Origin: a virus
Direction: 5' to 3' (one strand)
Length of the DNA: 24,996 nt
IMG/VR virus record: IMGVR_UViG_3300032086_000192
Coordinates: 1-24,996 of that record
The first letter of the stretch is position 1. Every line of letters begins with the position of its first letter. The notes under the pieces were generated by a model, which ran no database searches, was not told the DNA's origin, and worked only from the letters and a program-made list of their open reading frames with translations. Positions 684 to 19,849 of the stretch are shown here, piece after piece. The position numbers were made by a program, and so were the translations under genes.

Positions 684-1092
684 TAATACAGACAGAGGTA
701 GTTTCTTCAAACCACGAGCAGATGAAAGTCTGCTTGTGCAAGGGAAACTCAATAGCGAGGGATCAGAGTATCGTATTGCTATAGTCAAAGCCTCACTACC
801 TGATGGTGGTACAGCACGAGATGTCTATGTCAAAGTCGGTACTATGTACGAGAATGACAAGTCATTGAATGAAAAAGCACCAGACTTTAGTGGACCAGTC
901 ACAATGCCAAGCCAAGACAAACGTAGGATTGCTTGTTGGAAAACTGTATCCAAAGATGGCAATACTAAGTTTCTATCTGCACGGATAGGTGACAGTACAC
1001 CAAGAGTTGAAGAGCCAGTAACAAATCAAACTATTGTAGAAAATGAATCAGTATTAGGAGATATAAATGACCCAGACGAAATACCCTTCTAG
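673..1092 (+). CDS. Putative ssDNA-binding protein with an SSB-like acidic C-terminal tip
   Basis: A 139-residue protein beginning inside the end of the Erf-type gene. AAGGAG at 661-666 serves the tandem ATGs at 670 and 673; 673 has the better 6-base spacing. The body has a beta-rich pattern (SEYRIAIVKASL, DVYVKVG) and a block at about 68-107 with KAPDFSGP, ACWKTVSKDG and FLSARIGD. That block resembles the DUF736-like short proteins phages carry beside recombination genes. The linker at about 108-130 is polar, and the protein ends in DPDEIPF, very like the DDDIPF tip through which bacterial SSB recruits partner proteins. I infer an OB-fold ssDNA-binding protein working with the annealase. The SSB assignment rests on the tip, the size and the neighbour, not on clear homology over the body. 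Confidence 0.65.
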   Translation: MDYDNTDRGSFFKPRADESLLVQGKLNSEGSEYRIAIVKASLPDGGTARDVYVKVGTMYENDKSLNEKAPDFSGPVTMPSQDKRRIACWKTVSKDGNTKFLSARIGDSTPRVEEPVTNQTIVENESVLGDINDPDEIPF

Positions 1093-1378
1093 TGGATTAG
1101 CTAGAACCCATGACCCTAAAACGTCATGGGAAGCTGCAGAAAAAGTTGACACCAACAGACTTGAAGGCATTGTTCTTCGAGCCATAAAATCATGTGGTGA
1201 GAAAGGTGCAATACATGATGATGTGTATGCACGATTAGAACTGCACAAAATTAGAGAGTCAAGTATCACACCAAGATATAAACAACTTGAGAATAAAGGT
1301 TTGATCTATCGTGATGGCACTACAAGAAAAGGTAGCATGGGTAGAAGTCAACTTGTCATGTATTGTAAGGAGGAATAG
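1067..1378 (+). CDS. Small winged-helix-like protein
   Basis: A 103-residue protein. The start at 1067 follows AGGAG (1056-1060) by 6 bases and overlaps the previous gene by 26 bases. The N-terminus has the motif ARTHDPKTSWEAAEKV, close to the ARTTDPETSHEAA signature seen at the front of many small phage proteins. After it (about residues 30-100) come helix-rich segments and a final hairpin (GLIYRDGTTRKGSMGRSQ, then LVMY) with the layout of a winged-helix DNA-binding domain. It could be a transcriptional regulator or a recombination accessory protein; the sequence does not decide. It belongs to the rightward operon with the Erf-type and SSB-like genes. Confidence 0.7.
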   Translation: MTQTKYPSSGLARTHDPKTSWEAAEKVDTNRLEGIVLRAIKSCGEKGAIHDDVYARLELHKIRESSITPRYKQLENKGLIYRDGTTRKGSMGRSQLVMYCKEE

Positions 1379-1590: not shown

Positions 1591-2046
1591 CTAAGTCTGT
1601 ATGTTTTTCATACGCTCAATAAGACGATTAGCTCTATTTGGCACTTGTTTTGCCCACCTCGAGAGTAACATTTCGTCAGCAGCATCACTCCACGAACCAT
1701 TATTGATATGTTGACGCATCTTAATGAACTTAGATAGTCTTGGTCTACCAAGATTAAACATCATATTACATAAAATCTTTTGCACTTCAGCAGGTAACTC
1801 TTCAAACTGTGGATAAAGTAATTTAGTTTCTGCTACACAAGTATATAAATCAGCTTCAAATAATTCAGTTACTCTTTCATCATCTACTTTTGTGCCAACA
1901 TCTAGTCCATGTTCAGGATCATCTTCACGGATAAGATGGCCAATACCTACAGTTGGCAAGCCAAGATGATCGAGATAGATTTCATTTACTACTCCTTCAT
2001 CAGCTTTGATTTCTTCTGTCATTTCATTAAATGTATTTGTGTTCAT
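1591..2046 (-). CDS. GH24 endolysin (T4-type lysozyme)
   Basis: A 151-residue protein of glycoside hydrolase family 24, which cleaves the beta-1,4 bond between MurNAc and GlcNAc in peptidoglycan. The catalytic layout of T4 lysozyme (E11, D20, T26) is kept with the same spacing as E17, D26 and T32, within DEG, LDH and PTVGIGH. The C-terminal half has the usual FNLG and RW..Q..NRA.R...M segments. Length is close to the usual 145-180 for the soluble single-domain form. No signal peptide is visible, so it would need the holin for export. The start at 2046 follows AGGAG, and its ATG overlaps the TGA of the upstream zinc-ribbon ORF (ATGA). It is the last gene of the late operon. Confidence 0.92.
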   Translation of the reverse strand: MNTNTFNEMTEEIKADEGVVNEIYLDHLGLPTVGIGHLIREDDPEHGLDVGTKVDDERVTELFEADLYTCVAETKLLYPQFEELPAEVQKILCNMMFNLGRPRLSKFIKMRQHINNGSWSDAADEMLLSRWAKQVPNRANRLIERMKNIQT

Positions 2047-15160: not shown

Positions 15161-18144
15161 TAGTAAGCCACCTCTATTATCATTCCGTTAATCTGTAAAT
15201 CAAGAGGTACTGTTTGTGAAACAATAACTCTTGGGTCTCTATCATATCCTAATGTTCTAAATTCTTTTTTACCAGTAAAAGGTATTTTTTGTGGGTGATG
15301 ATCTGTTGTTTGTGCTGAAACAACTAAATCACGAGCAGTTGATAATGTTGATGGTGCTTTTATGTTTGCAGATAATGTTGTATTAAAGTCAACAATTACT
15401 CGTGATATTTCTCTTGGCTCTCCAGTAAGAGGACCATTAGCTAATTGTGCATCAATAGGTAATGTTTTAATTGTAGAATAAAAAGGAAACCCTACTAAAC
15501 CATTTCTTACATTTGTTTTTGCACTTGAAACATTTATTACACCTGAACTATTTACTGTATATTGACCTAAATGATCATTAACATTTACTACATCAACAAC
15601 AGCAGTTGGATCAAATTGTTGATATATTAGATAAGTAGTGCCATATCTATAAGTTGACTCAGTAGTATTTAATTCGTTAATTACACCACCACTACTGCCA
15701 GAAGCAGTTCGTACTGTTGCATAATCTAAAGGATAATCTGATCTAAAATGTTCTAAAGAACATCTTAAAGTGCCATCACCTCTATCTCTTACAGCAACAG
15801 CATATAAATGGTCTCTAACTGCACATACACTATCCCATGTTCCTTGTGTATCCCATAAAGACCAACCTGCTTTTTTATCACCCCTTACACTATAAAATAC
15901 TGCAATTGTACCATCTTCATTTAAAAGAAAAGAATAGTTTTCACTTCTATCTAAAGCACCTGCAATAACAGTTTGTTGTACTGGGTGTCTAATTAAATGT
16001 GGTGCTAATGCAGACACAGCTACAGATGTATAAGCATTTTCTGCATCAGTAAATAAAAACTCTCTTAACGCTGTACCAGTATGTTGCATAAATAATGTTG
16101 CACCATCAAAAGGTATTGGTCTAACGTAATCAGAACCAAATGGAGTTTGTTTTAATACTTGTGCATTTGACGGTGTTATAGCTGAATTATTAGAAGCTTT
16201 GACATAAAGTTCTGAACCTGCTGTAAATACTTGTAAATCTCTATTTGATACTAAATGTAATATTTGATTTATTTCACCAACATTAGTTGTTATATCAATA
16301 GCATCATTATCATCACCATCACCAATATCAAAGTTAAAAAACTGCCCTGACTTACTTGCCCATATTCCATCAGGCTGTCCAAGAGAACCTGCAAACCATA
16401 ATCTATTTTGATGAAAGGTAATTGCATGAGGATATCCGTAAACTTGAGAATAACTTTGTTCTTGCCAATCTTCTGTTATTGGTGTTCCCACTTTAATAGT
16501 AGGTGTACCACCACCAATTGCACTAGATGAAGCTGTATGGCTTGCAGTTACCTGATAAGTATTATCGTCTAACACCGTGACTGCTTTTGTTCCGTTAATT
16601 TGAGCACCACTAATACCACCGACTGCACCTGCATTACTAATGACAATATTTCCTCCAGTTAATCCATGAAGAGCCTGAGTTATTGTAATAACATTTGAAG
16701 ATTCATTAGTTCGTATAGAGTCAATAGGCAGTTCTGTTTCAACATCTTTATGCAATGTTACTCTTGCATAAGCTGTTCTTGTGCCAACTCTATTTTGTCC
16801 AGTATTACCAAGATCAAGTGCTGTAATTGTTAAACGTGAACCAAGTAACATTATATTTGTTCCTAAAGATGGAACATTTTGTGTTGGATTTGTTAAATCA
16901 GATGTTGTGACATTAGCTAATTGACCAGTTGTAGAACTAAAAGTTTGCGATGACCCATCTGCTGTTGCTTGAAAGATTAACCCTACATCACTAGTAGGTG
17001 CTCCAATCAATTGAAAATCAGCAACAGAAGATGATTGAGCATGAACAATTTGATATACATTACCTGATACCACTTGATTAATAGTTAATTGTGCAGTTGA
17101 TGTAAATGCAGGTACAGAAAAATAAGGATATGGATTATTATCAACAGAACTTGGATTCTTTATAACTAATATTTTATTATTTGATGCTTGATTTCCATTA
17201 ATTTCTGCCCTTACTCCTTGAGGTTGAAAAGAAAAATAAGGTTGATATATATCTGTATTATTAAATGATGTATCAAAATTAAATGTACTTATTTCAAAAG
17301 AAGTTAAACCAGTTCTTACTAACTGTTTAATCATGTGTGTAGGGTGTGCAATAAACATAATATCACCTTGTTGAGCAAATGTTAATTCATTTACATAAGG
17401 TTTATCATATGTATTATTTAACCAAGTCATGTCACCAGTTGGAGTAATTTGTTGAATTATAGAACCCCTACTTGCTCTTATTAAGTAACATTTTATACTT
17501 TGATCGGAAAAAGAAACTAGATACATTTCATCATCTGAAAATACAAAAGGCTCTAATCTATGTTGTATTTTAGGTACTCTAAAATCTTTTACTCTTGCTC
17601 TTTCTGCATCTGTTGATTCAACAGTTAAGTTTGCACCACCACTTGCAGTACGTTCTACAAATGTTGTATCAGGATAAGAGCCTAAAACTGACGCTGTTAA
17701 TTCAGGAACATCATCATAAGAACTATAAACACCAGTACCATTTATTCTATCTCTTAAACTTTCTGCATTTTCATAATTATTATTTGTATTAGACATAGCA
17801 TACCTTGACAGAAAAAAGGTGTTTCCTATTCTTGATTTATCTGAATTAAAAGTAAACTCAGCAGTTAAGATTGTTCCATCATTTAAATGAAATTTTATTT
17901 GTGAACCCATTTCAATATTAGCTGAATCTTGAAATCTTACTTCTGCTTGTGGGTGTGCGTAATCACCAAGAGATCGGTAAAATTCTGTTCCTGCTCTTCT
18001 CTTTACACCACCTTCAGCACGTATCCAAAAGTTTCTTACTTGTTCTGCTGCATTATTATATAAAGGTGTGTCTGTTCTAGAACTTAAAGAAGGACTAACT
18101 TCACCAAACTGAAAGTTATTTAATGGCACTTTCAATGTTGGCAT
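15160..18144 (-). CDS. Tail tubular protein B / nozzle (T7 gp12-like)
   Basis: A 994-residue protein that begins with the hallmark of podovirus nozzle proteins: LNNFQFGEVSPSLSSRTD, then NNAAEQVRNFWIRAEGGVKRRAGTE split over the next residues. Other typical segments are QPYFSF.., HQNRLWFAGS (about 585), and DGTIAVFYSVRGDKKAGWSL. It forms the distal tail tube below the gp11 adaptor and carries the internal gate in T7. It is longer than T7 gp12 (794), with extra beta-rich material in the middle (about 370-560, Thr/Ser/Asn-rich). Start at TAATG with AGGAGGT upstream. Confidence 0.9.
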   Translation of the reverse strand: MPTLKVPLNNFQFGEVSPSLSSRTDTPLYNNAAEQVRNFWIRAEGGVKRRAGTEFYRSLGDYAHPQAEVRFQDSANIEMGSQIKFHLNDGTILTAEFTFNSDKSRIGNTFFLSRYAMSNTNNNYENAESLRDRINGTGVYSSYDDVPELTASVLGSYPDTTFVERTASGGANLTVESTDAERARVKDFRVPKIQHRLEPFVFSDDEMYLVSFSDQSIKCYLIRASRGSIIQQITPTGDMTWLNNTYDKPYVNELTFAQQGDIMFIAHPTHMIKQLVRTGLTSFEISTFNFDTSFNNTDIYQPYFSFQPQGVRAEINGNQASNNKILVIKNPSSVDNNPYPYFSVPAFTSTAQLTINQVVSGNVYQIVHAQSSSVADFQLIGAPTSDVGLIFQATADGSSQTFSSTTGQLANVTTSDLTNPTQNVPSLGTNIMLLGSRLTITALDLGNTGQNRVGTRTAYARVTLHKDVETELPIDSIRTNESSNVITITQALHGLTGGNIVISNAGAVGGISGAQINGTKAVTVLDDNTYQVTASHTASSSAIGGGTPTIKVGTPITEDWQEQSYSQVYGYPHAITFHQNRLWFAGSLGQPDGIWASKSGQFFNFDIGDGDDNDAIDITTNVGEINQILHLVSNRDLQVFTAGSELYVKASNNSAITPSNAQVLKQTPFGSDYVRPIPFDGATLFMQHTGTALREFLFTDAENAYTSVAVSALAPHLIRHPVQQTVIAGALDRSENYSFLLNEDGTIAVFYSVRGDKKAGWSLWDTQGTWDSVCAVRDHLYAVAVRDRGDGTLRCSLEHFRSDYPLDYATVRTASGSSGGVINELNTTESTYRYGTTYLIYQQFDPTAVVDVVNVNDHLGQYTVNSSGVINVSSAKTNVRNGLVGFPFYSTIKTLPIDAQLANGPLTGEPREISRVIVDFNTTLSANIKAPSTLSTARDLVVSAQTTDHHPQKIPFTGKKEFRTLGYDRDPRVIVSQTVPLDLQINGMIIEVAY

Positions 18145-18728
18145 TAAGACCTCCTATCAGTTATAAATCTTGATGTAGCAAGTTTCCTTGTTGTTTGTTG
18201 TTGTGCATCTAAGTTTCTTGCTTTTGCCATCATTTGATCTGCTTTTGCAGTCATCAATTGTGTCAATGTTGTACTTCTTGCTATTGCTGTTGCAAAGATA
18301 GAAGCTAATGAATACTCAACTGCTAATGTAAAATAAGATGGAAAGTTAGTTTCTGTTTGCCTAAATGTATAATCAGCTATAACAACATCAGTATCTGTTG
18401 CATTACTAAATACCTTATCGCCATAAACTGTATAGTTTAAAAGATTGTCATTTACAGTTACTGCATGAAGCACAAGTAAATCACTTGGTAGTTGATGTGC
18501 TGCATCAAATCTACCAGTTGGATCAGAGGCTAATTGTGCCAATGTTGCTTGTTGTGTAGCAAATCGCCATCTTGCTGTAGATAAAGCTGTACGAATAGCA
18601 TCTTCATACATATTGTTTGCCACTAATGCCTCGGTTCTATTCTCCGTAAAAGAAGTAATAGGCTCTGCACCTATGAGAACCAATGCTCTTGAAACAATAT
18701 CTATTGCTGAATTTGCTGCTGTACTCAT
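18144..18728 (-). CDS. Tail tubular protein A / adaptor (T7 gp11-like)
   Basis: A 194-residue protein with the usual size and opening of gp11-type adaptors: IDIVSRALVLIGAEPITSFTE, then ANNMYEDAIRTALSTARWRFA. The internal blocks LPSDLLVLHAVTVND and YGDKVFSN are also typical. It forms the ring joining portal and nozzle. The start codon at 18728 sits 7 bases after a perfect 20-base hairpin, and the only good SD (AAGGAG, 18756-18761) is on the far side of it. Translation may therefore depend on the hairpin folding. The stop is shared with the nozzle start (TAATG). Confidence 0.9.
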   Translation of the reverse strand: MSTAANSAIDIVSRALVLIGAEPITSFTENRTEALVANNMYEDAIRTALSTARWRFATQQATLAQLASDPTGRFDAAHQLPSDLLVLHAVTVNDNLLNYTVYGDKVFSNATDTDVVIADYTFRQTETNFPSYFTLAVEYSLASIFATAIARSTTLTQLMTAKADQMMAKARNLDAQQQTTRKLATSRFITDRRS

Positions 18729-18735
18729 ATAAGAT

Positions 18736-18755
18736 TAGGGGGATTGCTCCCCCTA
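18736..18755 (-). promoter_or_regulatory. GC-rich hairpin between SD and start of the gp11 gene; candidate terminator or structured RBS
   Basis: TAGGGGGA pairs perfectly with TCCCCCTA (8 bp) around a 4-base loop (GCAA on the - strand). The stem is the strongest in this part of the window. AAGGAG (18756-18761) abuts its 5' side; ATCTTAT then the ATG follow its 3' side. Folding would put the SD 7 bases from the start codon. Its place after the capsid genes and before gp11 is also that of T7's T-phi terminator. The following T content is modest (ATCTTATAT), so a leaky terminator and a structured RBS are both possible. Confidence 0.7.
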
Positions 18756-18759
18756 CTCC

Positions 18760-19023
18760 TTAATCGCCATCAGTTTCAGCTATAGCTGTGCCATCTGATA
18801 CATCAACAACTGAACCAGTATTTGATAATACATTTACAAAGTTTGTTGTTGGAGTATTAGTATCTACCACAATTATAACGTCACGGACTGCCAACATATT
18901 AGCAGCATCATTGAAGTAACCTGCTGTGTTTACTGTTCCAATAGCATCTGCTGAACTGTAAAACCAAAGGTCACCACCTGAACTGCCACCAATACGAGTT
19001 AAGTTTGCTGCACTATAAGCCAT
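18760..19023 (-). CDS. Small putative capsid decoration protein
   Basis: An 87-residue protein directly after the major capsid gene, with a strong AAGGGGG 5 bases before the start. The sequence is Gly/Ser/Ala/Asn-rich and beta-like: AANLTRIGGSSGGDLWFYSS, ADAIGTVNTAGYFNDAANML, VRDVIIVVDT, acidic C-terminus. Short proteins with the same N-terminus and the TAGYFN block are common downstream of capsid genes in phages and prophages. I infer a head decoration or cement protein from that context. It has no membrane segment. A role as a minor tail or fiber-like ornament cannot be ruled out. Confidence 0.72.
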   Translation of the reverse strand: MAYSAANLTRIGGSSGGDLWFYSSADAIGTVNTAGYFNDAANMLAVRDVIIVVDTNTPTTNFVNVLSNTGSVVDVSDGTAIAETDGD

Positions 19024-19033
19024 TATAACCCCC

Positions 19034-19849
19034 TTATGTGTTGTTATCTAAGACTTCATAGATACCATTGTCATCTATGACAGTAGCACCCATTGACATC
19101 ATTGAAGTTGCTAAATGTGAAACTTTCTCAGGTACATAATTTAACTCAGTAGTTACATCTGCACCGATACCTAGACCCACAGAAGAAGTGTGATAGCCTA
19201 TGTTCTTACCTGCAGTAACAGCACTAGTTGAGAATACCTTAAATCCTAAGAACTCTTTCATGGACATACCACCTGCATATGGTAGGTTTTGCTCTCCAAC
19301 AAAGTCAGATGAAGCAAACTCTGTAATGAGGAATAAGTCAGCATATCCTTTTGGATTCATAGCTAAATATCTTCCACCATCTTCAGGAATATCTGCAGCA
19401 CCCATTGTCTCAAACAATGATAACAAGTCTGCTTTTTCTAAAGCTGAACCTGTGTCATGTATTTGTGTTGAGTTTGCACCTGCATCCATAGCAGTAATAA
19501 GTAACTCATCAGTCTTACGACCTAGAGCAGCAGCAGCAGATTGTGCCACAGCTTGTCTTTCGTCTATGTTAGTTTTAAGTTCGTCTAATTTATCAATGTA
19601 TTCTGCAGCATAGTAGTCGCTGAGTGTTACATCAACTGTGGTATGTGCTAATTCCATTGGAGTTACCATACCATTTCTTGATTTAGTAGAAGCCGAGCCA
19701 GTACCAATCTTTTGAAAACGTACTGTTGAGCCATTCACATTACTAACTGTACGGACAGTATTTCTTAATTTACTACCCATTCTTTGATAAGCAAGGTGAA
19801 CCTCTGTCTCGAACTGTCTAATAAAGGCTGTATCAATTGTATTAGCCAT
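19034..19849 (-). CDS. Major capsid protein
   Basis: A 271-residue protein behind a strong AAGGAG and the longest untranslated leader of the late operon. It lacks a long N-terminal delta domain, in agreement with the separate scaffold gene upstream. Features fitting short phage capsid proteins are the helical start (DTAFIRQFETEVHLAYQRMG), the loop RFQKIGTGSASTKSRNGMVT, a spine helix rich in Ala (QAVAQSAAAALGRKTDELL), and the tail block NIGYHTSSVGLGIGADVTTE. Location between scaffold and gp11 is the capsid position in T7-like phages. An HK97 fold is expected for the class but was not demonstrated here. Confidence 0.88.
   Translation of the reverse strand: MANTIDTAFIRQFETEVHLAYQRMGSKLRNTVRTVSNVNGSTVRFQKIGTGSASTKSRNGMVTPMELAHTTVDVTLSDYYAAEYIDKLDELKTNIDERQAVAQSAAAALGRKTDELLITAMDAGANSTQIHDTGSALEKADLLSLFETMGAADIPEDGGRYLAMNPKGYADLFLITEFASSDFVGEQNLPYAGGMSMKEFLGFKVFSTSAVTAGKNIGYHTSSVGLGIGADVTTELNYVPEKVSHLATSMMSMGATVIDDNGIYEVLDNNT

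Follow-up and report, generated by a model that had tools for sequence, protein, structure and literature searches.

The tail gene ttuA raises the question of how a ribosome finds an initiation codon whose only Shine-Dalgarno (SD) sequence lies on the far side of a stable hairpin. The window, the whole 24,996-nt stretch of DNA analysed here, is an IMG/VR virus fragment; compared by terminase, its nearest isolate is Pelagibacter phage EXVC031P Hodr, at 64% identity. Its minus strand carries, in order, the genes for the major capsid protein (phrog_3437; 19034–19849), an 87-aa protein (phrog_18004; 18760–19023), the gp11-like tail protein TtuA (phrog_394; 18144–18728), and TtuB (phrog_376). An earlier note took the junction directly upstream of ttuA to separate capsid from tail genes. 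It does fall at a head/tail boundary like that of T-phi in T7, but the adjoining gene is the 87-aa one, with the capsid gene one further upstream.

Anatomy of the ttuA junction

Read along the minus strand, the junction runs GGCGAT TAAGGAG TAGGGGGA GCAA TCCCCCTA ATCTTAT ATG. The TAA stop of the 87-aa gene (18760–18762) overlaps the SD AAGGAG (18756–18761), the upstream half of the proposed split ribosome binding site. A perfect 8-bp stem follows directly, in which the 5′ arm (18748–18755) pairs across the GNRA tetraloop GCAA (18744–18747) with the 3′ arm (18736–18743). An unstructured 7-nt spacer, ATCTTAT (18729–18735), then leads to the ATG of the initiation site (18726–18728), the position of which is conserved among relatives. 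The hairpin that the earlier note described as wedged between SD and start codon is exact in sequence and coordinates on this strand.

The SD is too distant from the ATG in linear sequence (27 nt) and has no alternative near the start codon, while the stable hairpin lies wholly between the two and restores a near-normal gap of 7 nt when folded. The computed anti-SD duplex of AAGGAG reaches −8.7 kcal/mol, and there is no SD 3′ of the stem, where the best energy is +2.1 kcal/mol (both values from locus L001, whose junction is identical to that of the window). Perfect hairpins with an 8-bp stem, a 4-nt loop and ≥5 G-C pairs occur once in the 25-kb window against 0.03 expected from dinucleotide shuffles, the hairpin region has a folding z of −3.6, and a scan of both strands found no second SD-hairpin-ATG arrangement in the window. 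In the MFE fold the window's SD is partly paired with the 3′ spacer (unpaired probability 0.30), through a weak pairing open to the UCUU of the spacer and absent from most relatives. Across six junctions, opening the SD with the hairpin kept intact costs 0.8–4.0 kcal/mol against an anti-SD gain of −3 to −10 kcal/mol. A nucleotide search with the junction gave no matches in 50,697 phage records, and Rfam gave none above the gathering score for the window and six loci.

The ttuA junction is probably a split ribosome binding site bridged by a hairpin, of the type described for T4 genes 25 and 38, and we put this reading at roughly 0.77. The stem would fold in the mRNA and take 20 nt out of the path between SD and AUG. 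The two would then be ~7 nt apart over the base of the helix, within reach of a single 30S subunit, which could bind both together and initiate TtuA synthesis. Ribosomes would accordingly be expected to use the AAGGAG SD, and disruption of the stem to lower TtuA synthesis.

Spacing and stem conservation among relatives

Three protein searches yielded 181 usable loci with 104 distinct junctions. One source record, IMGVR_UViG_3300046167_000222 (58.6 kb; L119, L120), contains the region in two copies 35.5 kb apart, reflecting either a repeated assembly or two joined genomes. A GC-rich hairpin stands directly upstream of ttuA and just past the upstream stop in 90 of the 104 junctions, and its 5′ arm is G-rich in all 90. 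The SD is 5′ of the stem in 82 distinct junctions, 0–3 nt away (one outlier at 7), with anti-SD energies of −3.2 to −9.9 kcal/mol; on the 3′ side the energy is above 0 in 82/82. Random 16-nt windows reach −3.2 kcal/mol in ~23% of cases and −5 in 10%, so a lone weak SD means little. Taken together, however, the SDs are not accounted for by such chance energies. Collection-wide scans for SD-hairpin-ATG patterns provide examples rather than rates; among the matches listed, 94 of 239 are TtuA.

Spacing was measured both from the duplex end and from the GG position, which differ in absolute values but agree on how linear and folded distances contrast. By duplex end, the 82 junctions have linear SD-to-ATG distances of 24–77 nt (sd 8.0) and folded distances of 7–15 nt (sd 1.5), with hairpins spanning 16–65 nt and 3′ spacers of 7–12 nt. 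The GG-to-ATG distance, counting only the G-C-closed stem, averages 34.0 nt linear (sd 9.2) and 12.2 nt folded (sd 2.1). In the same phages, the ordinary SDs that serve the 87-aa gene lie at 9.3 nt (sd 1.1); the folded spacing is therefore not perfectly optimal. The tightness of the folded distance is also partly geometric, since SD and AUG by definition lie on either side of the stem. More telling is that both flanks remain short and constant across hairpins of fourfold different span, and that the SD keeps to the stem and not to the stop codon: the GG-to-stem distance has an sd of 1.2 against 2.6 for stop-to-stem, with 11 junctions included in which the stop is 9–15 nt off.

The stem is also conserved at the RNA level, through compensatory changes and GNRA or UNCG loops. 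In 45 distinct four-base-loop hairpins, 97.5% of the inner eight pairs are formed, compared with 74% (maximum 80%) when the 3′ arms are permuted. MAFFT alignments of the hairpins were out of register, and covariation was scored on ungapped, loop-centred sets. In two such sets 97.4% and 97.2% of cells are paired, against 82% and 85% after shuffling (0/500 shuffles as high), and the covariation scores (0.592 and 0.364) are higher than in any of the 500 shuffles or any slid register. Close relatives show the same changes individually: an A-U pair is replaced by G-C in L123/L124, whose TtuA proteins are identical; two pairs are changed on both sides in L113/L114 (TtuA 97% identical); and L061/L062 carry a local double change within the stem. 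Four-base loops are GNRA in 40/70 and UNCG in 21/70, together 61/70, a count that excludes 20 hairpins with other loops. This prevalence points to an RNA rather than a DNA structure. The compensatory stem changes and constant SD and 3′ spacer lengths that the earlier note proposed to look for are present in 82 distinct junctions, and its claim that the hairpin shortens the distance is strongly supported in the same set by an SD at the stem foot, constant folded spacing and covarying stems.

Relocated sites and possible other roles for the hairpin

Several relatives have rearranged the parts of the site. L145 and L142 encode identical TtuA proteins and carry the same GGGGGCTACGGCCCCC hairpin. 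In L145, TAGGGGT precedes the hairpin and a 10-nt spacer without an SD follows it, whereas L142 has lost TAGGGGT and carries AAGAGGTTAATATG, an SD, 3′ of the hairpin instead. The L045 and L066 groups likewise have a hairpin and then a normal SD, with spacers of 20–23 nt. In total the SD is 3′ of the hairpin in eight distinct junctions from three groups, with spacers of 19–23 nt and the 5′ SD lost or weak. In L018, L022 and L023 a small, lysine-rich ORF, equipped with an SD of its own, sits exactly between the hairpin and ttuA; the TtuA of L022 equals that of L019, which has no insert. Eleven distinct junctions in close relatives have neither hairpin nor SD; their start codons lie 4–7 nt past the stop and they probably initiate by coupling. 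The stem-less junctions and SDs near the start that the earlier note had named as counter-evidence thus occur in subgroups (these 11, and the eight with an SD after the hairpin) and not elsewhere. On the unrooted TtuA tree the junction states require eight changes. Independent switches between 5′ and 3′ SD number three on it, too few for a sign test.

The Hodr type differs again: 39 of its 40 distinct junctions have a hairpin but no SD better than −4 kcal/mol on either side. Short spacers go with weak 5′ SDs (−3.3 to −3.9 kcal/mol), and where the spacer is 17–23 nt long there is mostly none. Together with the 11 hairpin-less junctions, the 39 indicate that ttuA expression in the wider group does not strictly depend on either element. 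Two annotation points concern isolates. The locus-tag prefixes of the Hodr and Baldr records are swapped (EXVC032PBaldr tags in the Hodr record, EXVC031PHodr tags in the Baldr record; L188 OQ414635.1, L191 OQ414636.1). The annotated start of AGE60281.1 of HTVC010P, a GTG within the boundary hairpin (L199:3380; KC465898.1, position 7275), is doubtful given that the gene in the relative HTVC034P starts after the hairpin.

The earlier note had also proposed that the element terminates most transcripts after the head genes, like a leaky T-phi, with a minority continuing into the tail genes. The position matches T-phi, a loose terminator scan picks up the window site, and hairpins with a T-run occur at the boundary of more distant isolates (Vibrio phages 1.257.O and CKB-S2, Yersinia YeP5, Acinetobacter TPWB-05), in several of which a normal SD then follows 3′, as in T7 (Vibrio 1.257.O, CKB-S2, Yersinia YeP5). 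Bacterial polymerase normally requires a U-tract, however, and no conserved one was found among 51 distinct split-type 3′ spacers, ATCTTAT of the window included: T makes up 36% of the first 7 nt compared with 29% overall, and the longest T-run is 1–2 in 42 of the 51. A single-subunit phage RNA polymerase (PF00940) was detected in none of 15 long, possibly incomplete related contigs, with T7 positive as control. This half of the dual claim is therefore not supported for the window's clade, where the missing U-tract makes classical termination unlikely as a common function. Restart by a terminating ribosome, with the stem moving the AUG near the upstream stop and the SD merely accessory, is similarly improbable. 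SD and stop do often overlap, and the hairpin-less relatives start just past the stop without an SD, but the SD is held closer to the stem than the stop is, and in the 11 junctions noted above it sits at the stem with the stop well away. Hairpins near start sites act as repressor operators in T4 gene 43 and elsewhere (PMC3014915). An operator role here is very improbable, as stem sequence, length (16–65 nt) and loop all vary and geometry and stability alone are conserved.

A hairpin that protects the head-gene mRNA against exonucleases at its 3′ end, or directs its processing, and so sets the head:tail ratio has a somewhat less than even chance, and would be compatible with a split ribosome binding site. 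Stem-loops set subunit ratios in Clostridium (PMC4423207), the hairpin has its place after the upstream stop and its G-rich 5′ arm in the 90 junctions, and a boundary hairpin is retained even where the SD is 3′, an ORF is inserted, or no clear SD exists. Protection leaves unexplained why the SD sits at the stem foot, why the 7–12-nt 3′ spacer is confined to the split type, and why L142 and L145 differ as they do. Given its retention in the 39 Hodr-type junctions, the hairpin probably serves the head-tail boundary in a second way, either stabilisation of head-gene mRNA or one reflecting descent from a T-phi-like terminator; mRNA protection is a fair candidate for the shared role. The boundary hairpin is also more widespread than the 5′ SD and, given these SD-less hairpins and the distant T-run terminators, probably came first, with the SD later accommodated to it. 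As the TtuA tree is unrooted, we can only infer this order. Tentatively, and with less than even odds, one dual-use element may be envisaged: a boundary hairpin derived from a T-phi-like terminator, or arisen in parallel with one, would have shed its U-tract, continued to protect or delimit head mRNA, and become the scaffold of the split site. One fold would then couple head-mRNA fate to tail-gene translation, with SD placement switched at least three times.

Known systems and further hairpins

The closest counterpart of the bridged site is T4 gene 38, where a hairpin reduces the spacing from 22 to 5 nt (PMC3014915). Its sequence, TAAGGAG AGGGGC TTCG GCCCTT CTAAAT ATG, has the anatomy of the window junction: UAAGGAG with the stop overlapping the SD, a G-rich/C-rich stem with a tetraloop, a short spacer and AUG. 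It is, however, a single tail-fibre assembly gene of an unrelated phage, whereas ttuA is a core tail gene across a broad clade, and the likeness most likely arose by convergence. For T4 gene 25, the studies cited in PMC3014915 (Nivinskas 1999; Malys and Nivinskas 2009) report a linear spacing of 27 nt, as in the window junction, cut to 11 nt rather than 7 by a conserved stem at an intercistronic junction. As summarised in that source, the gene 25 site is restricted to close T-even phages, whereas in the ttuA hairpins stem sequence and length diverge widely while the geometry stays. T7 resembles the ttuA junction in having a hairpin, T-phi, between capsid and gene 11, but with a U-tract and with its SD (AAGGAGG) 3′ of the hairpin. 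The stem-loops of selective RNA processing and stabilisation (PMC4423207) are likewise intercistronic and follow a highly expressed structural gene, but do not explain SD placement.

The mechanism itself is already known from T4 genes 38 and 25 (PMC3014915). What appears to be added here is breadth, a core tail gene, and an SD that has changed sides while the hairpin stayed in place. A search of the open literature, with most subscription journals outside its scope, found no paper on hairpin-bridged sites in these phages, and in the literature found split ribosome binding sites are a curiosity of two T4 genes. For ttuA the putative bridged arrangement would be the usual state across dozens of lineages of diverse, mostly uncultured and mostly marine phages. 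The natural swaps isolate each part of the site, and the junctions form a large evolutionary data set on the spacing and stability that bridged sites tolerate. Start-site finders that scan only 5–13 nt upstream miss such SDs, and the Hodr record has no ribosome binding site annotated for ttuA.

Hairpins near other genes were also noted. A 92-aa gene of other phages, helix-turn-helix-like by eye (L597, L598, L601, L618, L656; ~position 555–603), is preceded by AGGAG, a GGGGGCTTCGGCCCCC hairpin, a 5–6-nt spacer and ATG. Other members of its family have quite different upstream regions, and because the geometry occurs in a single subclade and varies little there, it does not count as independent proof of bridging. 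Upstream of a 104-aa gene (MEKRIFSEDKDQGI...; L325, L334, L339, L343, L350), AAGGA is followed by a GC hairpin and a long T-run nearly flush with the start codon, placing a terminator-like hairpin within the initiation region. In the window itself, a perfect 8-bp GC-rich hairpin, AGAGGGGTAAACCAACCCCTCT (1543–1564), lies between converging genes at 1067–1378 (plus strand) and 1591–2046 (minus strand) and is likely a two-way terminator.
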